A stretch of DNA of 31,272 nucleotides from a virus: the IMG/VR virus record IMGVR_UViG_3300042924_001153, positions 1 to 31,272 of that record, one strand, 5' to 3'. Shown here piece after piece: positions 6,035 to 30,845 of this stretch; position 1 is the first letter of the stretch, and each line of letters opens with the position of its first letter. The position numbers and the translations under genes are program-made. The notes below the pieces were generated by a model that saw only the letters and a list, made by a program, of their open reading frames with translations, searched no databases and was not told the DNA's origin.

Positions 6035-6042
6035 AACAGGAA

Positions 6043-6064: not shown

Positions 6065-6080
6065 ACATTAAAGGAAAATC

Positions 6081-6518: not shown

Positions 6519-6631
6519 CTTGGTTACTTGTATTGGCTCTACAGGCTGAATACAGGTGCGTAAAGTGGACATGGACAGGTGATGTTTATAACCGCAAGGT
6601 TATTTGTCTAAAGTGGGAGAGAAAGAAGTGA
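6515..6631 (+). CDS. 38-aa exported or membrane-anchored lysis-block peptide
   Basis: The ATG overlaps the holin stop as ATGA, and the stop overlaps the next start as GTGA. The peptide has a hydrophobic N-terminus (MTWLLVLALQA), then a hydrophilic Trp/Lys-rich part with two cysteines (C15, C31) that could pair if the body lies in the periplasm. The double translational coupling argues that it is a real gene. A spanin-like or holin-accessory role is possible, but no lipobox is evident. Confidence 0.6.
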   Translation: MTWLLVLALQAEYRCVKWTWTGDVYNRKVICLKWERKK

Positions 6632-9635: not shown

Positions 9636-9775
9636 GTGCTTGGCTAATTGCTTTAACAGGACTGATCTACGCCTACATTGCAGTAGAACAGTTTATGAAA
9701 GGCAACCCGAATATGGCGATTGTCTATGCGGGTTATGCCAGCTCGAATGTGGGTCTTTACTTACTCGCCAAGTGA
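9632..9775 (+). CDS. 47-aa small membrane protein
   Basis: A TTG start overlaps the preceding stop (TTGA). The product starts LSAWLIALTGLIYAYIAVEQ, a clear membrane helix, followed by a short loop (FMKGNPNMA) and a second hydrophobic helix ending GLYLLAK. The two-helix hairpin, with the coupling, makes this more credible than a chance frame. Function is unknown. It is the last rightward gene here and its end overlaps the end of the leftward MazG-like gene by 15 bases. Confidence 0.6.
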   Translation: MSAWLIALTGLIYAYIAVEQFMKGNPNMAIVYAGYASSNVGLYLLAK

Positions 9776-10072
9776 CTTCACGAACAATCCGTTGGGCAAT
9801 AGAATCCCCTTGCGACTTTTGATTTGGTCAAACGCAATTTCCATGCAGTTTACCAGACTAATGTCTTGTAAGGCACAATAAATTACAAGTGCTGTCATAA
9901 CATCGCCAACTCCATCAATAATTTCCTCTTTGTCTTTTTTGATGGTTGCGTCTGCCAACTCACCAAGTTCAGACATTGCTTTTAGCAATTGAGTCTCTGG
10001 GTTGCTATTAGGAATAATCTTCCTTTGCTCAGACCATTGTATGATTTTCATTTCTACTGCTGCGTAACTCAT
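9761..10072 (-). CDS. MazG-like nucleotide pyrophosphohydrolase (103 aa)
   Basis: An all-alpha single MazG domain. The metal-binding pattern is visible as SELGE (Glu35, Glu38) and EEIIDGVGD (Glu50, Asp53, Asp57). The family hydrolyses (d)NTPs, and in phages is thought to affect nucleotide pools or ppGpp. AAGGAGAAAAA precedes the ATG, which overlaps the end of the 73-aa gene upstream. It is the last gene of the leftward operon. Confidence 0.82.
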   Translation of the reverse strand: MSYAAVEMKIIQWSEQRKIIPNSNPETQLLKAMSELGELADATIKKDKEEIIDGVGDVMTALVIYCALQDISLVNCMEIAFDQIKSRKGILLPNGLFVKSLGE

Positions 10073-10290
10073 TTTTTCTCCTTAATCCATGTGCAATCAA
10101 AACAAACTTTCATCATCCATCTAACAAACCAGTTAGGCTCACAATCTTTTCTTGGGTGATAAACAATTCCATCATTTAATTCTGGCTTATTACCAAACAT
10201 ATAACATTTCCAGTCAGATCTTTCTGGCACATGGAATGAATATGTTTTTTCAGAATTTATATATCCAAAAGAATTTATTTCTTCACCCAT
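10069..10290 (-). CDS. Hypothetical protein (73 aa)
   Basis: I chose the ATG at 10290, 8 bases after GAGAG; a GTG at 10299 would add three residues. The sequence (GEEINSFGYINSEKTYSF) has aromatic residues and four cysteines, two in the C-terminal VCFDC. No family is recognised. It overlaps both neighbours, so it belongs to the leftward early operon. A metal site from the cysteines is possible but unsupported. Confidence 0.55.
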   Translation of the reverse strand: MGEEINSFGYINSEKTYSFHVPERSDWKCYMFGNKPELNDGIVYHPRKDCEPNWFVRWMMKVCFDCTWIKEKK

Positions 10291-10601
10291 GCTGACCACT
10301 CTCTTTCGTTTCTACCTGAGTTTGATTTAACTGTTTTACCTGTGAGATGAATAAGCCCTAGAACCTTCATCTCGTTTAAGCGTCTAGCGACTTGATTACC
10401 ATCTAGGTTTGTCAATGCTGAGATTCCATCTTTACCTAAAGCGCCATGCTTTTGTAGGCACTCTAAGATGATCTGGTGATGCTGAGATGCTACTGGTTTA
10501 ATAGCCTCTGCTGCTTCAAAAGAAGTGAGTGGGTCTGTAGTCCTAACTCTTGGAAAGTCAGGCATAACAAAAATTCTTTTAAACGCTTCTTTGTAATCCA
10601 T
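10275..10601 (-). CDS. Winged-helix DNA-binding protein (108 aa)
   Basis: AAGGAGAAAATA precedes the ATG. Residues about 40-100 form a helix-turn-helix with a wing: HHQIILECLQKHGALGKDGI, then NQVARRLNEMKVLGLIHLTG. This is typical of MarR/ArsR-like folds that read DNA. The N-terminal 35 residues are a Pro-rich extension. It is probably a regulator or replication accessory of the early region; the target is unknown. The upstream gap holds one of two repeated hairpins. Confidence 0.65.
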   Translation of the reverse strand: MDYKEAFKRIFVMPDFPRVRTTDPLTSFEAAEAIKPVASQHHQIILECLQKHGALGKDGISALTNLDGNQVARRLNEMKVLGLIHLTGKTVKSNSGRNEREWSAWVKK

Positions 10602-10614
10602 TATTTTCTCCTTG

Positions 10615-10647
10615 ATGTGGGGGACTAAGCCCCCTATTAACTTATTT
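10615..10647 (-). repeat. Intergenic hairpin repeat, copy A
   Basis: GGGGG (10619-10623) pairs with CCCCC (10630-10634) around a 6-base loop, flanked by ATGT and TATTAACTTATTT. The whole 33-base block recurs at 12809-12840 with one indel and two substitutions. It reaches the stop codon of the upstream gene and lies just before the ribosome site of the 108-aa gene. No U-run follows the stem on either strand. Confidence 0.7.
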
Positions 10648-10891
10648 AAAATGGCGCATCTTCAAAGTCATCTCTTGGAGAACGCTTTGTAGGTGATTTA
10701 GCTTCTTTCTGATCTTTAGCTTTGACAGACAAGGACATGAACTTAGTTCCATCTTTACCCTCTTTTAGCCATGCGCTAATCCAAAAATCTACACCCTCTA
10801 CATTGAGTGACCCTTTGTAGTGTGGAAACTTGTCATCATCTCTGCGGTCGTTTTTCCATAACGCACCACGATTTTCGTTGTTATATTCCAT
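10646..10891 (-). CDS. Small ssDNA-binding-like protein with SSB-type acidic tail (81 aa)
   Basis: AAGGAGCATTAA precedes the ATG. The core (about residues 25-60) is beta-rich: YKGSLNVEGVDFWISAWLKE then KFMSLSVKAK. After a basic Lys/Arg linker it ends DDFEDAPF, very like the DFDDDIPF tail by which bacterial SSB recruits partner proteins. Together with the ERF gene in the same operon this suggests ssDNA binding or handling. The domain is shorter than a full OB-fold SSB (about 110 residues), so the binding role is inference. Confidence 0.5.
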   Translation of the reverse strand: MEYNNENRGALWKNDRRDDDKFPHYKGSLNVEGVDFWISAWLKEGKDGTKFMSLSVKAKDQKEAKSPTKRSPRDDFEDAPF

Positions 10892-11384
10892 TTAATGCTC
10901 CTTTGTATGCTGAAAACTCTTTATGCAACTTGTTGGTTGCTTCTATTGCTACTAGTTCAGCTAATTCTTTATCATCGTAGTAACCAAAACTATGACACTT
11001 TGAATTAACTCTTAATTGTACAAACCATTTTTTATCTCTTTTGTGCCACATTACTCCTTTAATTCCACTTGTGTTTCTGGTGCTTATTTTCTGGTTCATT
11101 GAATTTTGAGACTTTGTTGCTTCTCTCAAATTTTCAATACGATTGTTTGTTCTGTTGTTGTCTATGTGGTCAACATAGTTTGGCAAATATCCGTGGTGAT
11201 ACAGAAAAATTAGTCTGTGCGTTTTGTACATCTTTGAGTTGATATGAATTCTGTAATAGCCAGTTCTTTCATCTAATGAGCCAGCAGCCTGACCAATTTT
11301 TATTGCATTAGCTTTTTGAACTTTCCAATACAAGATTCCATCCACATAGTCAAAATAGTCACAGACTTCTTTTTGCGTAAGCAT
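10881..11384 (-). CDS. HNH homing-type endonuclease with AP2-like domain (167 aa)
   Basis: The HNH core is seen as THRLIFLYHHGYLPNYVDHI, with Asp72-His73 and Asp75, then NNRTNNRIENLREAT; later conserved positions are Asn81 and Asn85. The C-terminal part (TSGIKGVMWHKRDKKWFVQL) resembles an AP2/DNA-binding finger. Such free-standing nucleases spread by cutting cognate alleles lacking them. It lies between the ERF and SSB-like genes; its ribosome site AAGGAG is made from the last two codons of the ERF gene. It may be a mobile insertion into the operon. Confidence 0.85.
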   Translation of the reverse strand: MLTQKEVCDYFDYVDGILYWKVQKANAIKIGQAAGSLDERTGYYRIHINSKMYKTHRLIFLYHHGYLPNYVDHIDNNRTNNRIENLREATKSQNSMNQKISTRNTSGIKGVMWHKRDKKWFVQLRVNSKCHSFGYYDDKELAELVAIEATNKLHKEFSAYKGALNGI

Positions 11385-11387
11385 GGA

Positions 11388-11990
11388 TTACTCCTTAGCC
11401 CTTTTAATTGCTGATCTTACTTTGCTAGGAAGCAGAGTCCACAATGCTACTTTTTGTTCAGCATCTAGGTTCTCTGATTCCAACTTTACCCAAGCTGCCT
11501 TAGGTTCTTCTTTATCACAGAGAGAAATTAAATCCATTGCTAACTCTCTGAGATAATTCTGTTCATCTTTTGGAAGGCTTTCCAGTGCACCCTGTGTAGG
11601 TGTGATGATTACCTCTTTAATAGGCGCAGAGGAGTCAAGAGCATCATGCTCAACGATTTCCATTGCTGTCATCCAAAGATACCTGCGCTGATATGTTTCT
11701 ACAGCACCAAGATTTTGGATGGCGTGTGCGCCCTTAAGGTTAGCCTCAACCATTGGCGAAGTAATCACAATGTTAGTGCCATCGTCAACGTCTGTAATTG
11801 TCAGGCTTGCGTAGTCTGTATCGTATGAGATAACTCCACACAATCCTTGACCATGAAAAATCTCGTTAATTTGTGGGAGAAAGTCACCCAACTCAAAGTA
11901 GTAGTAATTACTAAACTTGTTGTGACCAGACTTCTTGAGTGACATTTGTTGCAAGAACATCCTTGCTTGCATTAACTTCTTATGTACCAT
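11388..11990 (-). CDS. erf: ERF-family single-strand annealing recombinase (200 aa)
   Basis: The N-terminal about 130 residues fit the ERF family: a FSNYYYFELGDFLPQINEIF segment, GLCGVISYDTDYASLTITD, then the Gly-rich AIQNLGAVETYQRRYLWMTA block. ERF proteins, first studied in P22, anneal complementary ssDNA for phage recombination and genome circularisation. The C-terminal about 70 residues are a charged helical region. AAGGAAATTCAA precedes the ATG, which overlaps the upstream gene by 11 bases. The adjacent SSB-like protein is a plausible partner. Confidence 0.85.
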   Translation of the reverse strand: MVHKKLMQARMFLQQMSLKKSGHNKFSNYYYFELGDFLPQINEIFHGQGLCGVISYDTDYASLTITDVDDGTNIVITSPMVEANLKGAHAIQNLGAVETYQRRYLWMTAMEIVEHDALDSSAPIKEVIITPTQGALESLPKDEQNYLRELAMDLISLCDKEEPKAAWVKLESENLDAEQKVALWTLLPSKVRSAIKRAKE

Positions 11991-12165
11991 TTGAATTTCC
12001 TTGAGTTAAATATTCTTCAATCATTGCTTCTTTATCTTCTTCATAGAGATCGCCAAACTCTACAAAGTGGTTTTCTCCACAGCATGAGCCGTAGGTCTTA
12101 GGTTCAGCGCAGTAGCAGCAGTATTCGCCATGAGACAAATCCTTGATAGCGTCTTCTCTAGTCAT
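11980..12165 (-). CDS. Cys-rich small protein (61 aa)
   Basis: The ATG overlaps the upstream stop (ATGA). The sequence has clustered cysteines (CCYC at residues 16-19, CC at 28-29) and His33, a possible zinc site, followed by an acidic helix (EEDKEAMIEEYL). No family recognised. Its position just before ERF in a coupled operon supports a real early gene. Confidence 0.6.
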   Translation of the reverse strand: MTREDAIKDLSHGEYCCYCAEPKTYGSCCGENHFVEFGDLYEEDKEAMIEEYLTQGNSNGT

Positions 12166-12320
12166 TGGATTCTCTGCACTTGTTTAGCAATCAACCACTT
12201 GTCACCAAGTTGTAGGACTGATCTAACCCACTTGCGCTGATTGTATTGATTGACCTCTTGTGAGACTAGCTTGTTGTTATAAAGCTGTCTTGCCTTGCGT
12301 CTTAGTTGTTCTGTGTTCAT
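12162..12320 (-). CDS. Basic hypothetical protein (52 aa)
   Basis: ATG at 12320 overlaps the upstream stop and TGA at 12162-12164 overlaps the next ATG, so it is coupled on both sides (ATGA twice). The product (MNTEQLRRKARQLYNNKLVS at the start) is rich in Arg, Lys and Gln and likely helical. Charge suggests nucleic-acid contact, but no motif is recognised. The tight coupling is the main evidence that it is expressed. Confidence 0.6.
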   Translation of the reverse strand: MNTEQLRRKARQLYNNKLVSQEVNQYNQRKWVRSVLQLGDKWLIAKQVQRIQ

Positions 12321-12700
12321 TCTTCACTTTCAATTTTATTGTCAGCTTTTTTATCGCAACATCTTTTAACTGCAACAACTCCGCCTGTATGAATATGTTT
12401 TCCAGTTAATTGGTAAGAAGTTGGAAGCCCTTTTTGAACAGCTATATCCTCACATCTTGCGCAAACAATTTTTTCACTTGGTGGAGCAGCTATAAAAGTT
12501 AAATTTTTTTGTCCACAAATAGACCTTCCGCACCAACAAGAAACTGCCAAATGAGCGTTGTATTTTGGGCTAATTTTATGTGTTGTTACATATCGAACCC
12601 TATGAATCAATGCACCTCGTGTATTTTCTAAAAATGGCTCACACGCAGTCCAATGAATACCAGTTCTTGCCTTTTTGTCTTTTTTTATTTGTATTTTCAT
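12317..12700 (-). CDS. Cys-rich zinc-ribbon-like conserved phage protein (127 aa)
   Basis: I chose the ATG at 12700, one base after the stop of the 30-aa peptide gene; an in-frame upstream ATG at 12766 would overlap that gene widely. The sequence contains SCWCGRSICG (C55, C57, C62), then CARC (C80, C83), H102 and H104, and a C-terminal CC (C114-C115), suggesting one or two zinc sites. I recall similar phage proteins of unknown function with a VCARCE...TGGVVAV signature. It may be a nucleic-acid-binding or host-interaction factor. Confidence 0.65.
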   Translation of the reverse strand: MKIQIKKDKKARTGIHWTACEPFLENTRGALIHRVRYVTTHKISPKYNAHLAVSCWCGRSICGQKNLTFIAAPPSEKIVCARCEDIAVQKGLPTSYQLTGKHIHTGGVVAVKRCCDKKADNKIESEE

Positions 12701-12701
12701 G

Positions 12702-12794
12702 TCAGCCCCGATAAGCCAACAAAACACCCCAACCGCCAAAGATAACGATTGCCAATGTCCACTCAACTAGCGTTTGAATAATCTTACTTTTCAT
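12702..12794 (-). CDS. 30-aa single-pass membrane peptide
   Basis: The frame reads MKSKIIQTLVEWTLAIVIFG followed by GWGVLLAYRG. It has a basic N-terminus and a hydrophobic segment of about 20 residues. ATTTAAGGAAATCAAA precedes the ATG, the same ribosome-site layout as the 68-aa gene upstream (ATTAAGGAAATCAAG). The stop is one base before the next gene. The good ribosome site and fit between genes support a real micro-gene. Role unknown. Confidence 0.55.
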   Translation of the reverse strand: MKSKIIQTLVEWTLAIVIFGGWGVLLAYRG

Positions 12795-12808
12795 TTTGAT
12801 TTCCTTAA

Positions 12809-12840
12809 ATGTGGGGGACTAGCCCCCTGTTAACTTAGTT
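12809..12840 (-). repeat. Intergenic hairpin repeat, copy B
   Basis: GGGGG (12813-12817) pairs with CCCCC (12823-12827) around a 5-base ACTAG loop, followed on the plus strand by TGTTAACTTAGTT. It matches copy A at 10615-10647 in about 30 of 33 aligned positions. It overlaps the 3' end of the 68-aa gene and precedes the ribosome site of the 30-aa gene, so both copies hold the same place between two leftward genes. Confidence 0.7.
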
Positions 12841-13041
12841 AGCGACTCGCAAAACACCTGTGCGACCAGTTCCTTTTAAGAACTTAATCATGTCGGCAAG
12901 TAACTCTTGCTTTGAACTTGCATAAAATTCAATGGGTGTGTTTTTGATTTCAGCAATGTTGGTGTTGATGTTGATGCCATCAATCTCGCCAATAAAGCAG
13001 CGATTGTCTTGGTAAACATATGCTTTGAAAACTTGTGTCAT
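12835..13041 (-). CDS. First gene of leftward operon, hypothetical (68 aa)
   Basis: I chose the ATG at 13041, preceded by ATTAAGGAAATCAAG; a longer frame from 13119 would overlap the promoter and add a poor N-terminal extension. The product (TQVFKAYVYQDNRCFIGEID) is a mixed alpha/beta domain with one Cys, ending GTGRTGVLRVAN. No family recognised. As the first gene behind the leftward promoter it is likely expressed very early, where host-takeover factors are often found. Confidence 0.65.
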   Translation of the reverse strand: MTQVFKAYVYQDNRCFIGEIDGININTNIAEIKNTPIEFYASSKQELLADMIKFLKGTGRTGVLRVAN

Positions 13042-13088
13042 CTTGATTTCCTTAATGGCCCGTTTACGAATTGTTGCGGGTTGAGGGA

Positions 13089-13116
13089 AGTATAGCAAAC
13101 TAAACACATAGATCAA
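13089..13116 (-). promoter_or_regulatory. Leftward early promoter
   Basis: On the minus strand, -35 TTGATC (13116-13111) and -10 TATACT (13094-13089) are separated by 16 bases, and TG one base before the -10 makes an extended -10 (TGCTATACT). The predicted start is A at about 13082, leaving a 41-base leader before the 68-aa gene. It drives the leftward operon down to 9761. Confidence 0.7.
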
Positions 13117-13154
13117 CAATTATTTACTAAGTATTTTCCCTAGTGTATCTTTCT

Positions 13155-13182
13155 TTCAACAAACTGTTTACCTTGCTATACT
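13155..13182 (+). promoter_or_regulatory. Rightward early promoter, predicted leaderless
   Basis: The extended -10 TGCTATACT ends at 13182, with a weak -35 TTCAAC (13155-13160) 16 bases upstream. Exactly 6 bases (CAAGGG) separate the -10 from the ATG at 13189, so transcription should begin at or next to the start codon, as for the leaderless lambda cI mRNA made from PRM. It drives the right early operon. Confidence 0.65.
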
Positions 13183-13188
13183 CAAGGG

Positions 13189-13341
13189 ATGGATAAACAA
13201 ACTGCAATCAAACTTGCTGGCTCACAGAGTGAGCTTGCTCGTATCCTTGGAATCAAACGGGCGGCTGTCTGGCATTGGAAGACAATCCCCCTGTTACGAA
13301 TCTATCAACTCAAAGAACTCAGACCAGAATGGTTTAAATGA
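13189..13341 (+). CDS. Cro-like (YdaS-type) repressor, 50 aa
   Basis: The product begins MDKQTAIKLAGSQSELARIL and continues with GIKRAAVWHWKT. This is a compact helix-turn-helix with the recognition helix in the GIKRAAVWHW region, the pattern of Cro/YdaS regulators. It probably binds the inverted repeat in its own promoter region. The ATG is only 6 bases from the -10, and AAGGG directly abuts it, too close to act as a normal ribosome site. The stop overlaps the next ATG (ATGA). Confidence 0.75.
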   Translation: MDKQTAIKLAGSQSELARILGIKRAAVWHWKTIPLLRIYQLKELRPEWFK

Positions 13342-13700
13342 CACAAGAAGCAATAATTAAAGCCCTCCAGAATGGCCCACTTACTTCACAAGAAGTTTGT
13401 GATTTAACAGGTATGCCCAAGTCTTCTGTGCTGTCCACAGCTAAAAAGCTACGCTACAAAGGTGATCTAACAACCGAGGAGGTCAAGGTTGGTCGCTACA
13501 GAGTGGCTAGGTACACCCTTGCTGACCACTTAATTGAGAACAAGCCAAAAGACGAAACTCGCTGCTTACTGAACCCTTTCGATATTCGTAACGCCAAGGG
13601 CATCTTTAGCAAATCAGAGTATGCGGTGATGAACGCACAAGCTAAACGATTGCTTGGCAGACCAGTCAAAAAAGAAATTACCAACAATCAATTTATTTAA
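13338..13700 (+). CDS. Winged-helix regulatory protein (120 aa)
   Basis: The N-terminal 65 residues form a winged helix: MTQEAIIKALQNGPLTSQEV, then CDLTGMPKSSVLSTAKKLRY and a beta wing ending YRVARYTLA. The C-terminal half (NPFDIRNAKGIFSKSEYAVM) is charged and may bind DNA or partners. It is coupled to the Cro-like gene by ATGA. It could be a second early regulator or an accessory to the O-like initiator; target unknown. Confidence 0.65.
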   Translation: MTQEAIIKALQNGPLTSQEVCDLTGMPKSSVLSTAKKLRYKGDLTTEEVKVGRYRVARYTLADHLIENKPKDETRCLLNPFDIRNAKGIFSKSEYAVMNAQAKRLLGRPVKKEITNNQFI

Positions 13701-13728
13701 GTTTACAGTAGGCTTTTTTAAGTTTACA
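13696..13728 (+). repeat. Two direct 12-bp repeats spaced 21 bp
   Basis: TTTAAGTTTACA occurs at 13696-13707 and 13717-13728, identical, 21 bases apart start to start (two helical turns). The pair lies in the gap before the O-like replication gene. Such phased repeats suit a regulator or initiator binding on one face of the helix, so they are operator or origin-iteron candidates. Confidence 0.6.
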
Positions 13729-13758
13729 ATTGTTTGAAACACGGCTAGGTGCGAAGTC

Positions 13759-13842
13759 ATGAGCGCACCGAAAAGAGTTACCCCTTCTCCTGCCGAAGTT
13801 TCTTTTAAGGGGCTTTTAAAAAGCGGCAAAAATTATGGCTAA
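13759..13842 (+). CDS. Possible 27-aa basic peptide
   Basis: The frame starts MSAPKRVTPSPAEVSFKGLL and ends KSGKNYG, overlapping the replication gene by 8 bases. AGGTG lies about 9 bases before its ATG. The downstream gene at 13835 lacks a well-spaced ribosome site, so this leader peptide could couple its translation. No homology is recognised, and it may be a chance frame. Confidence 0.3.
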   Translation: MSAPKRVTPSPAEVSFKGLLKSGKNYG

Positions 13843-14602
13843 TCCGTGGTTTCGACTCTATTCAGAGTTCGCACATGACCCAAAAATTCAAATGCTTCCA
13901 GAGGCTATGCAAAGACGCTATGTCATGCTTATGTGCCTTAGATGTAGCGAAACACTTGAAACGTTACATGAAACAGAGATAGCGTTTCAACTACGCTTAT
14001 CAGAAGCAGAACTCATTGAAACAAAACAACTGTTCATCAGTAAGAATTTTATTGATAAGCAATGGAATTTGTTGAATTGGGATAAACGTCAATTTGTCTC
14101 AGACTCAAGCACCACAAGGGTTCGCAAGCATCGAGACAAAAAGAAACAACCAAGTAACGATGATGAAACGTTACAGAAACGTCAAAGTAACGCTATAGAT
14201 ACAGATACAGATACAGATACAGAACAGATACAGAAAAAGAAAGCAACTGTCGTTGCAACACCTGTCGGTGTTTCTGATTCTGTTTGGCAAGAATTCAAAT
14301 CTTTGAGGAAAGCCAAAAAAGCACCGATAACTCAGAGAGCCATTGACGCATTAACCAATGAAGCAAACAAGGCTGGTTGGACTTTAGAGAAAGCCTTGGA
14401 GGAATGTATTGTTCGTGGTTGGCAAGCATTTAAAGCAGATTGGGTTGTCAAGCCAAACCCTGCTGACAACATAAGGCTCACAGTTCCTCCATCAAATGAG
14501 CCTAATCTTGTTTTGCTAAAGATTAAGGAAGATGCAAAAAATGCTGCACCTATGCCTGATTTTGTTCGTCAATTTGCTAAACAAGTAAAAGGAAATATAT
14601 GA
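13835..14602 (+). CDS. Lambda O-like replication initiator/replisome organiser (255 aa)
   Basis: The N-terminal about 90 residues form a winged-helix-type domain (NPWFRLYSEFAHDPKIQMLP), a pattern of phage replication organisers that bind origin DNA. A polar linker (about residues 90-145) contains DTDTDTDT encoded by a GATACA microsatellite. The C-terminal part (WQEFKSLRKAKKAPITQRAI, then VRGWQAFKADWV) is a domain often seen at the end of such proteins, likely contacting host helicase-loading factors. I see no helicase or primase gene in the window, so host machinery is probably recruited. Confidence 0.72.
   Translation: MANPWFRLYSEFAHDPKIQMLPEAMQRRYVMLMCLRCSETLETLHETEIAFQLRLSEAELIETKQLFISKNFIDKQWNLLNWDKRQFVSDSSTTRVRKHRDKKKQPSNDDETLQKRQSNAIDTDTDTDTEQIQKKKATVVATPVGVSDSVWQEFKSLRKAKKAPITQRAIDALTNEANKAGWTLEKALEECIVRGWQAFKADWVVKPNPADNIRLTVPPSNEPNLVLLKIKEDAKNAAPMPDFVRQFAKQVKGNI
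14198..14232 (+). repeat. GATACA hexanucleotide repeat inside replication gene
   Basis: Four perfect tandem copies of GATACA (14198-14221), then GAACA and a fifth copy (14227-14232). Copy-number change would add or remove Asp-Thr pairs without shifting the frame. Lambda-type origins lie inside O as iterons, but these copies are shorter than typical iterons, so an origin role is uncertain. Confidence 0.75.
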
Positions 14603-14778
14603 AATTCCGTAAAGCAGAACCTGTTGAATTTTTTGTATCAACTGTTGGTTATCTTGTCTTCCAAAACTACTCAATCACAATAATTTTAACGCCTGAGCAA
14701 GCCAAAGTTTTGCAAAAACAATTACCAGATTTGATTGAAAAACAAGAACAACATTGGACAGGAATCGAAGAAGAATGA
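14599..14778 (+). CDS. Small hypothetical protein (59 aa)
   Basis: The ATG overlaps the initiator stop (ATGA), with AAGGAAATAT as ribosome site. The product starts MKFRKAEPVEFFVSTVGYLV and ends with a charged helix (KQEQHWTGIEEE). It looks like a small alpha/beta domain. No family recognised; coupling on both sides supports expression. Confidence 0.6.
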   Translation: MKFRKAEPVEFFVSTVGYLVFQNYSITIILTPEQAKVLQKQLPDLIEKQEQHWTGIEEE

Positions 14779-14894
14779 ACTACTTTGAAGCTATGAAACT
14801 GCTAGACAGAGTCAAGGAAGGCGTACCATATCCTGTACGTCTAATTAATCAAGCATTGGAATTAACTGGTGACTTACTCTCGCAAGACGATTGA
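14775..14894 (+). CDS. 39-aa acidic helical peptide
   Basis: The ATG overlaps the preceding stop (ATGA). The sequence (MNYFEAMKLLDRVKEGVPYP) is helical and ends acidic (SQDD). It overlaps the next gene by 26 bases. It probably serves as a small partner of the replication proteins, judged by position only. Confidence 0.55.
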   Translation: MNYFEAMKLLDRVKEGVPYPVRLINQALELTGDLLSQDD

Positions 14895-15081
14895 AAACCC
14901 AAACGATAGGGTAATCCTCGAAATTGCAGAAGCAAGGGAACTCTATCGTACTTGGGAGACAAACAAAGATAGAGACTTTGTGCGTGGTCGGCTAGAGAGA
15001 GCAGAACGAATCTATGGCTCTGGTGCTAGAGACAGGATTCGTACCTACATGAACAGAATTAAGGATGGGACACTCGAATGA
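14869..15081 (+). CDS. Basic hypothetical protein (70 aa)
   Basis: GTG is the only suitable start before a late internal ATG. The product is rich in Arg and Glu (LERAERIYGSGARDRIRTYM) and likely fully helical. The stop overlaps the methylase-like start (ATGA). No family recognised; nucleic-acid contact is possible from charge. Confidence 0.6.
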   Translation: MTYSRKTIENPNDRVILEIAEARELYRTWETNKDRDFVRGRLERAERIYGSGARDRIRTYMNRIKDGTLE

Positions 15082-15662
15082 GAGTTTTAGTTGCTTGCGA
15101 ATACTCTGGAACAGTAAGAGATGCTTTTATTGCTTTAGGGCATGAAGCAATGTCATGTGACTTGCTGCCAACAGATGTTGAGGGCCCACATTATCAAGGT
15201 GATATTTTTGATGTTCTTGATGATGGTTGGGATTTAATGGTTGCTCACCCTCCATGCACTTACCTTTCAAATGCTGGCGCAAGACATTTATATCCTAAAA
15301 AGTTTTTAAACCAACAAAGGTATGAACAAGGATTAGAAGCAAAACAATTCTTTATGAAACTGTTAACTTGCAACATTAAAAAAATCTGTGTTGAGAATCC
15401 AGTTCCATCGTCAATTTTTGGTTTGCCTAAATATCACCAAGTCATCCAACCCTATGAATTCGGTCATCCTTATCAAAAGAAAACTTGTCTTTGGTTAAAA
15501 AACTTACCGCCATTGATGGCGACTATGTATGTGCAAAAACAAGAAAGCACTAAGGTTGTTGGGAATTGGTTTAATGCTGGCGGCAAAGATAGACAAAAGA
15601 ATAGGGCAAAAACCTTTGAAGGTATAGCTACAGCAATGGCAAACCAATGGGGTGCAGTATGA
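15078..15662 (+). CDS. Cytosine-DNA-methyltransferase-like protein (194 aa)
   Basis: The N-terminus MRVLVACEYSGTVRDAF fits the SAM-binding motif I of class I methyltransferases. HPPCTYLSN (Pro58, Pro59, Cys60) fits the catalytic Pro-Cys of C5-cytosine methylases, and CVENP (Glu106-Asn107-Pro108) fits the ENV-type motif VI. At 194 aa it lacks the long target-recognition region of complete C5 enzymes (about 300-400 aa). It may protect phage DNA from host restriction, or be a diverged family with another substrate. It is coupled to the nuclease gene by ATGA. Confidence 0.75.
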   Translation: MRVLVACEYSGTVRDAFIALGHEAMSCDLLPTDVEGPHYQGDIFDVLDDGWDLMVAHPPCTYLSNAGARHLYPKKFLNQQRYEQGLEAKQFFMKLLTCNIKKICVENPVPSSIFGLPKYHQVIQPYEFGHPYQKKTCLWLKNLPPLMATMYVQKQESTKVVGNWFNAGGKDRQKNRAKTFEGIATAMANQWGAV

Positions 15663-15925
15663 GATACGCAGCTAGGGTAGATGCTAACCAAATGCAAATA
15701 GTGAGTGCATTAAGGGCAGCAGGGGCTTATGTATGGGTGATTGGCCTACCTGTTGATCTTTTGGTTGGCTACAAAGGTCACACGTTCTTGGTAGAAATCA
15801 AAACAGACTCTAAAAAGCGTTTAACCAAGCTACAAGCCGATTTTTTCGAGAATTGGTCTGGTAGTACCTTGTCAAGAATAGATAGCCCAGAAGCGGCATT
15901 ACGAATGATCGGAGTAGTCAAGTGA
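15659..15925 (+). CDS. VRR-NUC/PD-(D/E)XK-type nuclease (88 aa)
   Basis: I chose the ATG at 15659 because it overlaps the preceding stop (ATGA). The PD-(D/E)XK core is visible as PVDLLVGYKGHTFLVEIKTD, with Asp33, Glu46 and Lys48, followed by Gln59 in a helix. Such small nucleases act as structure-specific endonucleases or Holliday-junction resolvases. Its place after a methylase-like gene and in the replication region suits DNA branch resolution; specificity is not shown by the sequence. Confidence 0.78.
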   Translation: MRYAARVDANQMQIVSALRAAGAYVWVIGLPVDLLVGYKGHTFLVEIKTDSKKRLTKLQADFFENWSGSTLSRIDSPEAALRMIGVVK

Positions 15926-16254
15926 AAGCACCTTACAAAGCAATTGAGTTTATTTTGGAACAAGCCCCTCGTTTTGCCGAGGCAAAGGCTCAACGTGTGT
16001 ATATCGAGAATTTCCTTAGAACAAAAAAAGCCCTATTGATGAAAGAAGCTATGGCCAAAGGAATTGACTCTGGTGTAGCACAAGAGCGTGAGGCTTATGC
16101 ACACCCAGAGTACCAAGAACTATTGCTAGGCTTGCAAGTGGCTACCGAGCGTGAGGAAGCCCTTAAATGGAAGCTGATTGCCGCCCAGATGAAGTCAGAC
16201 ATCTGGCGATCAGAGCAAGCAAGTGAGCGTCTTGGCGTAAAAACCACAGAGTAG
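15922..16254 (+). CDS. Coiled-coil hypothetical protein (110 aa)
   Basis: A GTG start overlaps the preceding stop (GTGA). The sequence is strongly helical and charged (LRTKKALLMKEAMAKGIDSG, then VATEREEALKWKLIAAQMKS), suggesting a coiled coil. No catalytic motif. It may bind DNA or form complexes with the neighbouring nuclease; no family recognised. Confidence 0.6.
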   Translation: MKAPYKAIEFILEQAPRFAEAKAQRVYIENFLRTKKALLMKEAMAKGIDSGVAQEREAYAHPEYQELLLGLQVATEREEALKWKLIAAQMKSDIWRSEQASERLGVKTTE

Positions 16255-16264
16255 GGAAAGTACC

Positions 16265-16294
16265 TAGACAATTGTGTTTAGAAATCTATACAAT
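16265..16294 (+). promoter_or_regulatory. Candidate internal sigma-70 promoter
   Basis: -35 TAGACA (16265-16270, five of six matches) and -10 TACAAT (16289-16294, five of six) are 18 bases apart. They lie in the 87-base gap before the gene at 16342, within an outer inverted repeat AAAGTACC (16257-16264) and GGTACTTT (16321-16328). It could boost the second half of the right early operon. Confidence 0.5.
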
Positions 16295-16341
16295 CACAGA
16301 CAGCCCAAGCAATTCGCAAGGGTACTTTTAAGGATAAAGAA

Positions 16342-16599
16342 ATGCAATACAAATTTGACACAACTGTTGGTGAAGGCTCTGTAATCGTTACTGTCGTCAT
16401 GGAGTACGAGCAAGACGAAGAAGGCATTTATAACGAGAACATCGAAGATGTGATCTACGAAAATATTTCGCTGATGGGTATCTTTACTGCTGAACAGTAT
16501 CGTGATTTAGAGATCGAAGGCTCTATGCGTCTTTCTAAGCACATCTTAGATGAGGCAGACCATGCCAAAACTGTTGACTACGATATGAGGTGCGTCTAA
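16342..16599 (+). CDS. Acidic hypothetical protein (85 aa)
   Basis: AAGGATAAAGAA precedes the ATG. The N-terminus is beta-rich (MQYKFDTTVGEGSVIVTVVM), followed by an acidic helical part (EYEQDEEGIYNENIEDVIYE). The net charge is strongly negative, a trait of some DNA-mimic anti-defence proteins, though nothing else supports that here. It is first behind the internal promoter and overlaps the next start (TAATG). Confidence 0.6.
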   Translation: MQYKFDTTVGEGSVIVTVVMEYEQDEEGIYNENIEDVIYENISLMGIFTAEQYRDLEIEGSMRLSKHILDEADHAKTVDYDMRCV

Positions 16600-16748
16600 T
16601 GCTTTTAGGCTGCAAACCATCGCATCCAGACGCAAAGTGTGCAAACTGCAAAAGGCCATTGTCTGAGCATAAAACGACAGTTCATGTCATTAACAGCAAA
16701 GACAAGGCTTGTATTTACATCCCAATATCTTTACAGGTGAAGGTATGA
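16599..16748 (+). CDS. Small Cys-containing protein (49 aa)
   Basis: The ATG overlaps the preceding stop (TAATG) and its TGA overlaps the next ATG (ATGA). The sequence begins MLLGCKPSHPDAKCANCKRP. C14 and C17 form a CxxC with nearby His residues, so it may be a zinc knuckle. No family recognised. Confidence 0.6.
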   Translation: MLLGCKPSHPDAKCANCKRPLSEHKTTVHVINSKDKACIYIPISLQVKV

Positions 16749-17011
16749 CTAAAGATGAAATCATTGAGATGGCTAATGAAGCGGGATTTTTTCTAAACAT
16801 AGATTGTCAAATTTGTGGCTTTGAAAAATTTGCTCAACTAGTAGCACAGCATGAGCGTGACGTTATCAGCGATGAATGGTGGTCATGCTACCAGTCAGAC
16901 CTTGAAAATGGCGTTAAATCATTGAACGAATATGAAGCTAAAAAGTTTGCAATAACTTATCCAGAACTAGCAAAGTTTGGTTCATGGCTAGAAGCAAGGG
17001 GACAAGCATGA
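16745..17011 (+). CDS. Small hypothetical phage protein (88 aa)
   Basis: I chose the ATG at 16745 (ATGA overlap) instead of an in-frame ATG at 16709. The layout TKDEIIEMANEAGFF, then FEKFAQLVAQHERDVI, recurs in many phage proteins of unknown role that I recall from mosaic accessory regions. The C-terminal half is acidic and helical. The stop overlaps the following start. Confidence 0.62.
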   Translation: MTKDEIIEMANEAGFFLNIDCQICGFEKFAQLVAQHERDVISDEWWSCYQSDLENGVKSLNEYEAKKFAITYPELAKFGSWLEARGQA

Positions 17012-17688
17012 CTCAGACTGAAGCACTCAAATTAGCATTGGATGCGTTGGAATACACAGGTTTGAAATGGCCTCAAGTTGAAGAAGCCATCACCGCCATT
17101 AAAGCCGCACTAGAAGCGAAGGATACTTTAAAGTGGAAATTGCGAGGGCATACAACGCTTGACACATTGCAAAATGAAAAAATTGCAGAATCTTTTGGTT
17201 GGGGGAAAGGAGAATCGTATGACGATTGCATTTGTTGTTCAGCATTTAATCTTCACGATTTTGCAGAAGCAATTAGATTTGATGAAAGAGAAAGACTTGT
17301 TGGAAAAACACAAGAACCTGAACCTGACAAGTCAAGCCTGTTTAGTTATAAAACCTTGATTGCTTATGCCGCATCGTGTGTTGCTGAGGCTTTATCGGAT
17401 ATCCGCCAACAATCACAACTAGAAGAGAAAGATGAACCTGTGCTATGGCGCAATGCCGCAATCAGACTTGGCGAGGAGCTGTCCTCTGTTGGGCCTAATG
17501 GCTACTACGACATGAGTGCCAAGGAATGGCTTGATTGGGCCATGGAACAGAACCCAAGGGGCAAATATTCATTACCGCAGCGCAAGCCGTTGTCGGATGA
17601 GGAGATCAAAGCGCTCGATTACAGCGGAACACGCATCGAGTTTGTCCGAGCCATCGAAGCCGCACACGGCATTAAGGGGGAAGCATGA
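17008..17688 (+). CDS. Mosaic accessory protein (226 aa)
   Basis: I chose the ATG at 17008 (ATGA overlap). The protein seems built of short modules that also occur separately in phage accessory proteins: TQTEALKLALDALEYTG at the start, FAEAIRFDERERL in the middle, and RIEFVRAIEAAHGI at the end. A central CICC contains three of its four cysteines. No enzyme motif is visible. Function unknown; its modular nature suggests shuffling among accessory genes. Confidence 0.62.
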   Translation: MTQTEALKLALDALEYTGLKWPQVEEAITAIKAALEAKDTLKWKLRGHTTLDTLQNEKIAESFGWGKGESYDDCICCSAFNLHDFAEAIRFDERERLVGKTQEPEPDKSSLFSYKTLIAYAASCVAEALSDIRQQSQLEEKDEPVLWRNAAIRLGEELSSVGPNGYYDMSAKEWLDWAMEQNPRGKYSLPQRKPLSDEEIKALDYSGTRIEFVRAIEAAHGIKGEA

Positions 17689-17921
17689 AACAACTGATTG
17701 AAGACCTTATTAGCGCATTGGAATATCATGTTGAGCAGACAAGACCAATTTACAGCACCACTGTTGCACTTCAAGCCGCAAGAGAGGCGCTCAAGGCGCT
17801 CCAACCACAGCGCACATGGGTAGGGCTGACGGATGAGGAGATTTCTGACTGCATGGAAATGAGCATACAAAAAACTTGTCGTGCCATTGAAGCCAAACTC
17901 AAGGAGAAGAATGGCATATAA
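17685..17921 (+). CDS. Helical accessory protein (78 aa)
   Basis: The ATG overlaps the preceding stop (ATGA). Its start, KQLIEDLISALEYHVEQTRP, and its LTDEEISDCMEMS segment resemble pieces of the 226-aa neighbour, suggesting descent from shared modules. No known family; likely dispensable. Its last codons form part of a TATAAT box placed before the HNH gene. Confidence 0.6.
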   Translation: MKQLIEDLISALEYHVEQTRPIYSTTVALQAAREALKALQPQRTWVGLTDEEISDCMEMSIQKTCRAIEAKLKEKNGI

Positions 17922-17922
17922 T
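17917..17922 (+). promoter_or_regulatory. Perfect TATAAT before HNH gene
   Basis: TATAAT at 17917-17922 overlaps the stop of the 78-aa gene, 20 bases before the HNH start. No convincing -35 or TG extension is seen. The AAGGAG ribosome site at 17930-17935 would lie at the very start of such a transcript. Weakly supported. Confidence 0.35.
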
Positions 17923-17942
17923 GAAACGCAAGGAGATTCATT

Positions 17943-18398
17943 ATGAACATTGAAGCAATGATTTTTGAACGGCTTATGTACACACCTCAAGATGGGAAAG
18001 TTTGGTGGGTCAATCATCCAAGATGGCCGTCATATAGTGGCAAGGAGGCTGGCAATATGATGCAGACCGGATATCGAAAACTGAAGTTTTGCAACAAACA
18101 ATACTTGGTTCATCGTATTGCTTGGCTTCTCCATCATGGTTTTTGGCCTATTGGTGATATTGACCACATAGATGGCAACCCATCAAATAACAAAATTGAA
18201 AATTTACGGGATGTTCCTCATAGCGTAAACATTCAAAACCGCAAGTCGGCTACCGCAAAAAATAAGACGGGATTTTTGGGGGTTGTGAAGCGTAGAAACA
18301 AATATGCCGCCCACATTCATAAAAATGGCAAGCAAATCTATTTGGGTTTGTTTGAAACGCCAGAACTTGCGCATCAAGCATATAAGGAGAACACATGA
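17943..18398 (+). CDS. HNH endonuclease with AP2-like tail (151 aa)
   Basis: The core is seen as VHRIAWLLHHGFWPIGDIDH (Asp74, His75), IDGNPSNNKIENLRD with Asn83 and Asn87, then a C-terminal AP2-like strand set (GFLGVVKRRNKYAAHIHKNG). AAGGAGATTCATT precedes the ATG. It is similar in plan to the leftward HNH gene at 10881-11384 but clearly diverged. It sits between small coupled accessory genes, as expected of a free-standing homing nuclease. Its stop overlaps the next start (ATGA), so it is well integrated in the operon. Confidence 0.85.
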   Translation: MNIEAMIFERLMYTPQDGKVWWVNHPRWPSYSGKEAGNMMQTGYRKLKFCNKQYLVHRIAWLLHHGFWPIGDIDHIDGNPSNNKIENLRDVPHSVNIQNRKSATAKNKTGFLGVVKRRNKYAAHIHKNGKQIYLGLFETPELAHQAYKENT

Positions 18399-18646
18399 CT
18401 GAATGGACTCCAGAGGAAGACGAGGCTTTCAACATGGTTGAGAGAAACAGTAACCTTGGTAAACAGATATTAAGAGCAAACAAATCTAGTGGCATGGACT
18501 GTTGCACTTACGACTGTACCCAAGGAAGAAACTGTCCAGTACGAAATAAGACTTTAGATGAGGTAGCCCATGAGTTCAGTTTAATGAAGTCATTTGGTGA
18601 TACTGCACAGAGTTTTGCTGCTTTTGTAAGGGGGATGAAAAAATGA
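18395..18646 (+). CDS. Cys-containing hypothetical protein (83 aa)
   Basis: The ATG overlaps the HNH stop. The product has an acidic N-terminus (TEWTPEEDEAFNMVE) and a cysteine set CCTYDCTQGRNC that may hold zinc or a metal cluster, then a helical C-terminus. The stop overlaps the alpha-CTD-like gene start (ATGA), so they are likely made in similar amounts and could function together. Confidence 0.6.
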   Translation: MTEWTPEEDEAFNMVERNSNLGKQILRANKSSGMDCCTYDCTQGRNCPVRNKTLDEVAHEFSLMKSFGDTAQSFAAFVRGMKK

Positions 18647-19035
18647 CAAAAACAGAAATACTAGATCATTTTGCGGTAAACGCAATGCAAGCATTAATTG
18701 AAAAAATGGGAGTTACAAACCCTTTTGCCATGGCTCAAACTTCTTATCGTATGGCTGTAGAAATGCTTGAGCATCGTGAGCGTATTTTGAGAGAGTGGCA
18801 AAAAGAACAAGAGATGCAACACAAACAGCAAAACTCTGACATTAAAGACCTTGATTTGCCGATTAGGTATCACCGATGTTTAGTGTCAGAGAATATCTTA
18901 ATGAAACAAGATCTTTGCAACTGGACAGAACGAGAAGTAAGACGAATTCCAAATCTAGGCGTAAAAGGATTGCAATTTGTTAAAGAAGCAATGGTTTTGC
19001 ATGGATTGAAATTTAAAGGACAACAAGATGCTTGA
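18643..19035 (+). CDS. Protein with RNA polymerase alpha-CTD-like domain (130 aa)
   Basis: Residues 1-62 are a helical N-terminal part. Residues 66-125 align over their whole length, without gaps, with the C-terminal domain of bacterial RNA polymerase alpha: IKDLDLPIRYHRCL, then DLCNWTEREV, then PNLGVKGLQFV and a final GLKFKG. Arg75, Cys79, Leu80, Gly106 and Lys108 correspond to E. coli Arg265, Cys269, Leu270, Gly296 and Lys298. Arg265, Gly296 and Lys298 are among the residues contacting UP-element DNA. E. coli Asn268 and Ser299 are Arg78 and Gly109 here. The fold call is by eye but strong. A role as a transcription factor acting on host polymerase or AT-rich promoter DNA is inference; a generic HhH DNA-binding role is the alternative. 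Confidence 0.75.
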   Translation: MTKTEILDHFAVNAMQALIEKMGVTNPFAMAQTSYRMAVEMLEHRERILREWQKEQEMQHKQQNSDIKDLDLPIRYHRCLVSENILMKQDLCNWTEREVRRIPNLGVKGLQFVKEAMVLHGLKFKGQQDA

Positions 19036-19195
19036 ACAAAAAAGGGACGCACCCAATAACCCTCCATATTGGGTATGCACTAACTGTAAATGGGCTTTTG
19101 AGGCATTACAAGCCGCAAATAGACATAGATGTAACAACCAAGATAAGGAAGACAATGGGCAAAGGTTCTACTCCAAGAAAATTCTCAGTAACTAA
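19028..19195 (+). CDS. Small zinc-finger-like protein (55 aa)
   Basis: AAAGGACAACAAG precedes the ATG, which overlaps the previous gene by 8 bases. The finger pattern is WVCTNCKWAFEALQAANRHR with C17, C20, H33 and C35 (CxxC-x12-HxC). Such fingers bind nucleic acid or proteins. It also overlaps the next gene by 41 bases. I preferred it to a TTG-started frame at 19032, because the ribosome site and finger pattern fit. Confidence 0.6.
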   Translation: MLEQKRDAPNNPPYWVCTNCKWAFEALQAANRHRCNNQDKEDNGQRFYSKKILSN

Positions 19196-19355
19196 CGAAG
19201 AATATGCAAACCGATGGAACGCCATTTTCGGAAAAGATAATGACTCGCAAGAAAACAAAGAGAAAGCATTGGAATCTGGTGAATCCGATATCTCATGCCC
19301 TAGTGGGGGCATCGATAACTCAGAGGGACAAGCTGGACAAACTCAGACTCCTTGA
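19155..19355 (+). CDS. Small conserved phage protein (66 aa)
   Basis: AAGGAAGACA precedes the ATG. The N-terminus MGKGSTPRKFSVTNEEYANR with WNAIFGK is a pattern I recall from many small phage proteins of unknown role. The C-terminal half is disordered and polar, and overlaps the start of the next gene by 116 bases in another frame. A longer frame from 19032 lacks a good start. Confidence 0.6.
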   Translation: MGKGSTPRKFSVTNEEYANRWNAIFGKDNDSQENKEKALESGESDISCPSGGIDNSEGQAGQTQTP

Positions 19356-19701
19356 GTACTCAGCATTAGACGCAATGACAAAAGGCTCTGGAACTATCCT
19401 AGACTGGCGTACCTTGGTAGATGTTCTAAATTTGTCTGAAATGATGGGAAAGAATGGAGTAGGCCCAGAGGTGCTACCTATTTGCCAAACAGCACAGGAT
19501 AGCCTCCACAAAGCCGCCTTGCGCTACCAAGAGACAAAGAAGATGGGATTAGATGGGCAAGGTATAAAAGCCATCAGAGAATTGATTGAGTATGCTGATT
19601 TGCAACAGGGAAGTATCTCAAGATCAGAGTTTGAGAGATACATTCAGAAAACAAAAGACTACATAAAGTCAAATGGGAATCTGGTGGTAGAGATTGAATA
19701 A
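19240..19701 (+). CDS. Conserved phage/prophage accessory protein (153 aa)
   Basis: I chose the ATG at 19240 (MTRKKTKRKHWNLVNPISHA); an upstream in-frame ATG at 19204 seems less likely. The pattern NPISHALVGASITQRDKLDK with LDAMTKG and a C-terminal SISRSEFERYI recalls proteins of Betaproteobacterial phages with unknown function. It is all helical. Its C-terminus overlaps the Ref-like gene by 8 bases. Confidence 0.65.
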   Translation: MTRKKTKRKHWNLVNPISHALVGASITQRDKLDKLRLLEYSALDAMTKGSGTILDWRTLVDVLNLSEMMGKNGVGPEVLPICQTAQDSLHKAALRYQETKKMGLDGQGIKAIRELIEYADLQQGSISRSEFERYIQKTKDYIKSNGNLVVEIE

Positions 19702-19951
19702 CAAACTTTCTAGTCGTGAAAGACTACACCTCGCAAGGGTTAAAGAGATGCCTTGTGGGGTCTGTGGTCAGGCAGGGCCATCAGATGCTCACCACATTGA
19801 GCAGCACCAGCAGTATCTTTGTATTCCGCTATGTAAGGACTGCCATCAGGGTAGCCACAATGGAATTCATGGACAAGCAAGAATCTGGTCGGTTTATAAA
19901 CACACAGAAATGTCAGTTTTAAACGAAACCCTGAGAAAGTTGATAGGATAG
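19694..19951 (+). CDS. Ref-like HNH nuclease (85 aa)
   Basis: A TTG start follows GGTGGTAGAGA; the first internal ATG would cut off the N-terminus. The zinc and HNH features are CGVC (C21, C24), DAHHI (H33, H34), CKDCHQG (C47, C50, H51) and HNGIHG. This pattern resembles P1 Ref/DUF968-type nucleases, some of which act with RecA-coated DNA. It is the last gene of the right early operon and may act in recombination with the ERF system; the exact family is uncertain. Confidence 0.7.
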   Translation: MNNKLSSRERLHLARVKEMPCGVCGQAGPSDAHHIEQHQQYLCIPLCKDCHQGSHNGIHGQARIWSVYKHTEMSVLNETLRKLIG

Positions 19952-19974: not shown

Positions 19975-20000
19975 AGAGGGCTTGTATGCCCTCTTTTTTT
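19975..20000 (+). terminator. Rho-independent terminator at end of right early operon
   Basis: AGAGGGC (19975-19981) and GCCCTCT (19988-19994) form a perfect 7-bp stem with a 6-base loop, followed by six T (19995-20000). It lies 23 bases after the Ref-like stop. It sits between early and late genes, so either read-through/antitermination or a late promoter just after it is needed for the head genes. Confidence 0.88.
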
Positions 20001-21337: not shown

Positions 21338-21501
21338 TGAAAATGACTAAAGCTGGTCAGAAAAAGGTTGGCAAGGTCATGGGTGAGTACAAAGAAGGCA
21401 CTCTGCACTCTGGTAAGGGTGGCAAGGTTGTCAAGAACCCAAAGCAAGCTGTTGCCATTGCTCTTAGTTCTGCTAAAAAAGTAATGAAAAAAGGCAAGTG
21501 A
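21334..21501 (+). CDS. DUF6496-like small basic protein (55 aa)
   Basis: The start overlaps the preceding stop; an adjacent ATG could serve equally. The segment VMGEYKEGTLHSGKGGKVVK and KQAVAIALSSAKK matches my memory of DUF6496 proteins. It is strongly basic and helical at the C-terminus. The stop codon is part of an extended -10 promoter (TGATATAAT) that precedes the GIY-YIG gene. Confidence 0.7.
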   Translation: MMKMTKAGQKKVGKVMGEYKEGTLHSGKGGKVVKNPKQAVAIALSSAKKVMKKGK

Positions 21502-21507
21502 TATAAT
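21499..21507 (+). promoter_or_regulatory. Extended -10 promoter TGATATAAT before GIY-YIG gene
   Basis: A perfect extended -10 (TG-A-TATAAT) overlaps the preceding stop codon, with no clear -35. The predicted start (about 21514) falls inside a 6-bp hairpin, TCTGCT (21511-21516) with AGCAGA (21524-21529), so the hairpin can form only in read-through transcripts. Confidence 0.6.
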
Positions 21508-21565: not shown

Positions 21566-22189
21566 ATGAACGAGCAAAGTGCCAGATGGTACGTCTATGA
21601 ACTCATCAATCCAATCAATGGAAAGGTGTTTTATGTAGGCAAAGGAACTGGTAACAGAATAGACCAGCATGAGCGTGAAGCCGCTAAAGGGGTATGCTCG
21701 AAAAAATGTAATAAAATCAATTACATAATTAAGCGTGGTTTCAAAATAAAGAAGCAAAAAGTAGCATTATTTTGGGATGAACAAGCTGCTTATGACCATG
21801 AGACTGACTTAATTGCTCACTATGGTTTATCTAATCTCACAAACATCATGGCTGGTGGTCAAACCGCATTTGATAGACGCTTAGTTGAGCGTAAGACTCG
21901 AATCAAAGAGCCTCAGTTTTCTTTATCTGATTGGCTTGAAAAGAAAAAGCCAGATCATCCTACATTTAGCCGTTTTGCTGAATGGTTTAAGACTGGGATG
22001 TACACAGGCAAGAAAATATCTGTAAGTAGCGAAAACCCCAAACTTACATATCATTGTGTAGCTACAGAGATTGTCTATAACAAGATTCTTCCATTCTTTT
22101 GGGAAAAGATTAAACAAGACGATATAGCCATTGAGATATTTACTCAAAGGATGAAACATCACAATGTGGAGTTGGTATATGGCGGCTAG
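21566..22189 (+). CDS. GIY-YIG homing-type endonuclease (207 aa)
   Basis: AGAGGAG precedes the ATG. The N-terminal domain has WYVYELINPINGKVFYVGKG, the GIY-YIG pattern in diverged form (VYE then YVG), followed by Arg31 and His35, and a catalytic-type Glu in the DHETDLIAHYG helix. The C-terminal about 100 residues probably bind the target site. It stands alone between a DUF6496-like gene and the small terminase gene, with its own promoter, consistent with a mobile insertion. Confidence 0.85.
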   Translation: MNEQSARWYVYELINPINGKVFYVGKGTGNRIDQHEREAAKGVCSKKCNKINYIIKRGFKIKKQKVALFWDEQAAYDHETDLIAHYGLSNLTNIMAGGQTAFDRRLVERKTRIKEPQFSLSDWLEKKKPDHPTFSRFAEWFKTGMYTGKKISVSSENPKLTYHCVATEIVYNKILPFFWEKIKQDDIAIEIFTQRMKHHNVELVYGG

Positions 22190-30200: not shown

Positions 30201-30209
30201 TGATACAAT
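30201..30209 (+). promoter_or_regulatory. Extended -10 promoter TGATACAAT, predicted leaderless
   Basis: TG-A-TACAAT ends at 30209, and the ATG at 30216 follows after exactly 6 bases (GCCCTC). No -35 is evident. The predicted transcript begins inside the capsid terminator stem-loop, at the start codon of the longer HNH reading frame. Confidence 0.55.
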
Positions 30210-30239
30210 GCCCTCATGTTAATTCATGGGGGCATTTTT
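30209..30239 (+). terminator. Rho-independent terminator after major capsid gene
   Basis: TGCCCTCATG (30209-30218) pairs with CATGGGGGCA (30225-30234) as a 10-bp stem with one G-U pair and a TTAATT loop, then TTTTT (30235-30239). It should end capsid mRNA. The 3' arm contains GGGGG that would serve as ribosome site for the ATG at 30240. Confidence 0.88.
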
Positions 30240-30839: not shown

Positions 30840-30845
30840 TAAGGT

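Follow-up and report, generated by a model that had tools for sequence, protein, structure and literature searches.

An early phage protein that joins an RNA polymerase alpha-CTD homologue to a phage helical domain and varies in genome position

The 31,272-base phage record analyzed here, which we refer to as the window, encodes a protein of 130 residues (P0001; 18643-19035, + strand) that carries an alpha C-terminal domain (alpha-CTD). Judged by profile matches and predicted fold, this domain is a true homologue of the alpha-CTD of RNA polymerase, and chance resemblance can be ruled out. We tentatively read P0001, at somewhat less than an even chance, as a trans-acting DNA-binding early regulator in which a captured alpha-CTD would be fused to a helical domain of phage origin.

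An earlier note on this DNA had described an ORF with an alpha-CTD-like part, and both are present. P0001 residues 54-117 match PF03118 (RNA_pol_A_CTD) with an E-value of 7.4e-12 and 45.3 bits against a curated cut-off of 23.8 bits, so that the profile search which the note had proposed was positive, and the same profile was matched above its cut-off in 19/19 alpha-CTD records searched. In a phmmer comparison with the PDB, alpha subunits were the only matches at E < 0.1 and filled all ranks down to E 0.6. The best of them was 3gfk_B, the alpha-CTD of B. subtilis, at E 1.2e-7 in an ungapped alignment. Structure prediction, likewise proposed in the note, returned the alpha-CTD fold. In two AlphaFold models (pLDDT 84.8 from 18 sequences and 92.0 from 30 sequences) the fold is predicted at about residues 66-119, preceded by helices at 3-22 and 27-63. 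The top Foldseek matches of these models were all alpha-CTDs, with TM scores (normalised to the isolated domain) of up to 0.86, and the DNA-bound alpha-CTD structures 1lb2 and 3n4m were among the matches. Profile, PDB, fold and residue matches together place the alpha-CTD-like domain at residues 66-125 (18838-19017, +). The gene is under strong purifying selection, with pS 0.58 and pN 0.05 in comparison with a class-L relative (L010), and selection is seen in both halves of the protein.

The remaining N-terminal domain (residues 1-63; 18643-18831, +) consists of the two predicted helices. A Pfam search of P0001 found no match to the alpha N-terminal domain (alpha-NTD). When the PHROGs families were searched, the alpha-CTD part matched none of them and the N-terminal domain gave the only match, a weak one to phrog_2201. 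This module ('MTLRDYFAAKAM...MADAMLKARE') also occurs alone, as separate small proteins, in the same phages. The helical part is thus unlike the alpha-NTD, as had been proposed, and P0001 lacks the N-terminal polymerase-assembly domain of RpoA.

In E. coli, R265 and N268 are DNA contacts, and N268 is important for UP-element use (PMC11434276). The correspondence of Arg75, Gly106 and Lys108 to R265, G296 and K298 of E. coli, on which the earlier note relied, holds and extends to C79 (C269) and N104 (N294). Within the E. coli contact set (265, 268, 269, 294, 296, 298, 299 and 302), positions 265, 269, 294, 296 and 298 are kept, and 268, 299 and 302 are changed in the window subfamily, which in P0001 takes the form of N268 to R78, S299 to G109 and E302 to F112. 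Among 32 distinct sequences no variation is seen at R265, C269, N294 and G296, while position 298 is Lys in 30 and Arg in 2; N268 is replaced by Arg in 28 and S299 by Gly in 31, and E302 is mostly hydrophobic. The same four residues are invariant in a set of 30 diverse members, in which K298 is Lys or Arg. A sister subfamily with the same N-terminal domain also retains S299 and E302. Its members include L045 (3949) and L060-L079 at the same right-operon position, and L076, L077, L121, L122 and L124 in other settings. As S299 and E302 are kept there, these alignments suggest that a DNA-binding alpha-CTD was the likely ancestral starting point of the family.

We also compared the surfaces at positions 259 and 261, which we take to contact sigma70, and at 285-288, presumably the activator contact. 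An acidic residue is found at 259, 261 and 288 in 20/30, 11/30 and 20/30 members of the phage family versus 33/35, 31/35 and 35/35 bacterial alpha-CTDs, a comparison that is indicative only because the 35 bacterial domains were gathered by similarity to one family member. As far as this indicative comparison goes, the phage family has kept the DNA core but relaxed the sigma70 and activator surfaces relative to bacteria, and this relaxation speaks against P0001 simply mimicking the alpha subunit.

In the window, the leftward early operon (9761-13119) carries MazG-like, SSB-like, HNH and ERF genes, among them a short SSB-like ORF (10646-10891, -) and the ERF single-strand annealing protein (PF04404; 11388-11990, -). 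The rightward early operon (13189-19951) carries Cro-like, HTH and helicase-loader/O-like genes and many small ORFs and is followed on its 3' side by terminase, portal, scaffold and capsid genes, with the large terminase starting at 22400. The P0001 gene belongs to the rightward operon. Its ATG overlaps by 4 nt the stop of an 83-residue ORF (18395-18646, +), which stays beside the alpha-CTD gene in several close relatives (L001-L005); one of these, L002, is a 37-kb IMG/VR contig that is identical to the window at the protein level across most of the shared stretch. The stop of the P0001 gene is in turn overlapped by the start of c4 (19028-19195, +), which encodes 55 residues with a CxxC...HxC zinc-finger-like motif and often accompanies the alpha-CTD gene. 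There follow c2 (19204-19701, +; profile match to phrog_20828), whose family is found in the right operon in both of the context classes described below, the HNH/DUF968-like nuclease-like ORF c9 (19694-19951, +; profile match) and a terminator-like hairpin with a T-run (19975-19994, +) at the end of the operon. The gene had been placed late in the early operon, just before the terminator. It does lie in the right early operon, but not just before the terminator, as c4, c2 and c9 intervene.

Other features of the window were recorded alongside. Scattered among the phage genes are four ORFs, three for HNH-like endonucleases and one GIY-YIG-like (10881-11384, -; 17943-18398; 30216-30809; 21566-22189), of which 17943-18398 was checked by profile; one of the four lies between ERF and the SSB-like gene. 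A 12-bp hairpin with a T-run (30207-30236) adjoins a promoter-like site and overlaps the HNH start codon at 30216; it may silence translation of the homing endonuclease. The G5/C5 hairpin GGGGGCT(T)AGTCCCCC occurs twice in the left operon (10619-10634 and 12813-12827), and on the minus strand the 10634 copy lies directly upstream of the ribosome site and ATG of ORF 10275-10601.

We then examined the distribution of the gene. A second scan brought the loci with the gene or its neighbours to about 57 (57-58), and further scans to more than 80, all of them on viral contigs, and a search of bacterial genomes with full-length P0001 found no relatives. Used as a query, the L077 alpha-CTD matched bacterial alpha-CTD loci only, at 42-51% identity; since these came from mixed phyla, a bacterial donor is not singled out. 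In every locus examined the alpha-CTD gene lies in early clusters and never with structural genes. Its settings fall into two classes, whose locus counts include near-duplicates: class L (32 loci), with the order SSAP (ERF PF04404 or Sak PF06378), alpha-CTD, YqaJ (PF09588) and SSB as far as the contig reaches, and class R (45 loci including the window), in which the gene shares the right operon with families c2, c4, c6 and c9, and YqaJ is absent, L001 excepted. The class-L gene and the O gene, wherever the latter is seen, lie on different strands; together with YqaJ, the class-L gene is directly downstream of ERF, an arrangement not found in the window. About half of the relatives place the gene in the opposite early operon, and relatives up to 91% identical carry it on the opposite strand, between ERF/Sak and YqaJ. 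A tree built from 53 distinct proteins shows about ten switches of context, and well-supported branches force at least 3-4 of these. One locus (L056) has an intermediate layout, with c4 between alpha-CTD and YqaJ downstream of the SSAP. The alpha-CTD gene is free in position, and one of its settings ties it to a recombination module.

The gene is present in one copy in 16/19 records; in G007 the two contig ends each hold part of one gene, and two copies are present in G010 and G015. A second alpha-CTD protein in L027 (3764-4165, -), encoded in the right operon, with the usual protein encoded in this phage as well, is without the N-terminal domain and runs into a segment 'RQWIGLTEEE'; a search for relatives of this protein returned only itself. 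In L055 a 236-residue ORF (5963-6670) has the C-terminal 86 residues of the alpha-CTD protein behind a different phage N-terminal part; either the domains were swapped naturally or the assembly is chimeric here. The end of L022 and the start of L029 split one alpha-CTD gene over both ends of IMGVR_UViG_3300032295_001092 (38,989 bases), which makes a complete, circular record probable.

The setting in class L raises the main alternative, that P0001 is an accessory of recombination or replication whose alpha-CTD would serve solely as a helix-hairpin-helix type DNA-binding module aiding the annealing protein, the exonuclease or the replication machinery. We consider this doubtful. In its favor, the class-L order persists when one SSAP type replaces another, and in whole records YqaJ is present in 9/9 of class L and 0/9 of class R, with alpha-CTD in 18/18. 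In L077 the alpha-CTD gene has a RecB-like nuclease, a helicase and an SSB-like gene in its vicinity, and relaxed polymerase and activator surfaces around a kept DNA core would suit such a role. However, class-R phages without YqaJ, including the window, keep the protein, which is 90% identical to that of the class-L locus L010. Phylogenetically independent support for the YqaJ link amounts to 3 supported pairs (p 0.25), so the association is clear by counts but weak phylogenetically, and neighbours in an early operon may differ in function. Sister phages, moreover, run ERF-YqaJ-SSB without an alpha-CTD gene, which indicates that the recombination module does not need it.

By terminase and capsid, the closest named relatives are Manatee Spring podovirus MW202481 and Methylophilales phage Venkman, both of this sister lineage. 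The alpha-CTD gene was looked for in both and is absent. They carry ERF-exonuclease-SSB or Sak-YqaJ with no gene in between. Their right early operon ends with a gene whose annotation is antitermination (Q-like). The Q-like gene matches PF06530 below threshold (E 0.0086); at least 80 relatives of it were found among viral contigs. Among the loci scored, 82 had Q without alpha-CTD, 87 had alpha-CTD without Q and none had both, many of the Q loci being short fragments; no similarity to PF06530 or to the sister-phage Q-like gene was found in the window or in any alpha-CTD record. As the two genes never occur together and the Q-like gene stands at the end of the right operon, the alpha-CTD protein is a possible substitute late regulator. 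The two groups differ in their replication genes also, so the exclusivity may reflect lineage and not replacement.

These observations bear on a strict late-gene activator that would replace Q and drive late promoters without -35 boxes, the role which the earlier note had derived from position and promoter type. We regard it as quite unlikely. The absence of a Q-like homologue from the window and all alpha-CTD records and the place of the sister-phage gene are in its favor, as is a candidate late promoter (21499-21507, +) with an extended -10 (TGATATAAT) and no clear -35, just as the note had characterized late promoters. This promoter type is not late-specific, however. In the candidate right early promoter (-10 TGCTATACT; 13174-13182, +) the -10 is extended and a clear -35 is missing; the divergent candidate left early promoter (-10 TGCTATACT; 13089-13097, -) has an extended -10 with a partial -35, TTGATC. 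The argument from promoter type therefore falls. Across the window extended -10-like sites were not enriched (17 found versus 28.7 expected), and we found no late-specific promoter motif there. The argument from position does not survive either, because relatives carry the gene on the opposite strand and the tree shows the repeated context changes described above; the gene has no conserved place late in the early operon and does not stay near the late genes. In both classes the c2 ORF keeps to the late end of the right operon and fits that position better, and the Q label of the sister phages is itself a sub-threshold Pfam match. A wider version, in which an alpha-CTD detached from RNA polymerase would act in trans as a late or global regulator in place of the Q-kind antiterminator of the sister lineage, seems to us similarly improbable.

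Some details of the promoter regions may be added here. The A-tracts upstream of 21499 were considered as UP-like elements and rejected, because they are Lys codons of a small ORF. Both divergent early promoters are carried by an 18-nt inverted repeat, TGTTTANNTTGCTATACT (13089-13106 and 13165-13182), a candidate operator of the Cro-like protein encoded at 13189, and a TGTTTA...CTATAC site that resembles TGTTTANNTTGCTATACT (16273-16297) precedes ORF 16342. Within 13174-13191, 30201-30218 and 30831-30848, the extended -10-like sites TGCTATACT, TGATACAAT and TGATAGAAT each end exactly 6 nt 5' of an ATG (13189, 30216 and 30846). With this spacing transcripts would begin at the start codon, so the Cro-like gene (13189), the HNH gene (30216) and a small ORF (30846) are possible leaderless genes.

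A decoy for host takeover, in which free alpha-CTD would occupy UP elements or host activators and thereby weaken host transcription, where other phages modify or remove the host domain instead, would agree with the invariance of R265 in the family and with the targeting of host alpha-CTD by other phages (T4 Alt/ModA, phiKMV-like Rac), but is very unlikely given how poorly the activator-contact surfaces are kept.

We thus return to the trans-acting early regulator as our preferred reading. An RNA polymerase alpha-CTD would have been captured by a phage and joined to a phage helical domain. The helical part may pair subunits, or dock a partner, and so bring together two alpha-CTDs, which could grip A+T-rich DNA through the kept core of minor-groove and backbone contacts; P0001 bound in this way would modulate host RNA polymerase at early or late promoters of the phage or at those of the host. 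A protein supplied in trans would leave the gene free in genome position. The mutual exclusion with the Q-like gene also counts for a role in transcription, unless it only separates two lineages. The sequence comparisons and models speak directly to the homology, the predicted fold, the contact core, selection, the early location and the positional freedom; we infer dimerisation, target sites and an effect on polymerase. Against the early-regulator reading we count that N268 is Arg in most members, that S299 and E302 are lost in the window subfamily, that the sigma70 and activator surfaces are relaxed, and that about half of the relatives embed the gene in a recombination operon.

Modification or removal of the host alpha-CTD is known from several phages; the freshwater phage lineage described here keeps its own copy, fused to a phage domain. 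The binding target of P0001 would tell whether a detached polymerase domain works as a regulator or as a DNA-binding part of recombination, and natural contrasts make the question testable: left versus right operon, with versus without YqaJ, and alpha-CTD versus Q-like gene.

Among known systems, T4 Alt/ModA ADP-ribosylate Arg265 of host alpha (PMC2988021) and, as a result of phiKMV-like Rac, alpha is cleaved (PMC7552054). With the bacterial alpha-CTD (E. coli 249-329), P0001 shares the family, the fold and the positions R265, C269, N294, G296 and K298. It differs from the bacterial alpha subunit in the missing alpha-NTD, in the changes of N268 to Arg, S299 to Gly and E302 to a hydrophobic residue, and in the relaxed sigma and activator surfaces. 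To the lambda-type late antiterminator Q (PF06530) P0001 has no sequence relation; a Q-like gene fills the right early operon of the sisters that lack alpha-CTD. Our literature search on phage alpha-CTD-like proteins found annotation, namely ORF 40 of Erythrobacter phage L02, termed part of an RNA polymerase (PMC9127768), and no functional study. Phage proteins with an alpha-CTD-like domain are already known from database annotation. A0A6J5MNY7 (128 residues) matches P0001 over its full length at 55% identity and hence belongs to the same family. Rhodococcus phage Finch A0A2P1JY10 (240 residues) and Mycobacterium phage Mithril A0A5Q2WLP1 (149 residues) match in the alpha-CTD-like part only, and gp24 of Microbacterium phage Morrill ('DNA binding protein'), whose neighbours are unannotated ORFs, has an alpha-CTD-like segment of 34% identity that matches weakly (E 0.06). 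As far as our searches show, what is new is the domain fusion across subfamilies, the alternation between two contexts, the link to YqaJ and the exclusion between the alpha-CTD and Q-like genes.
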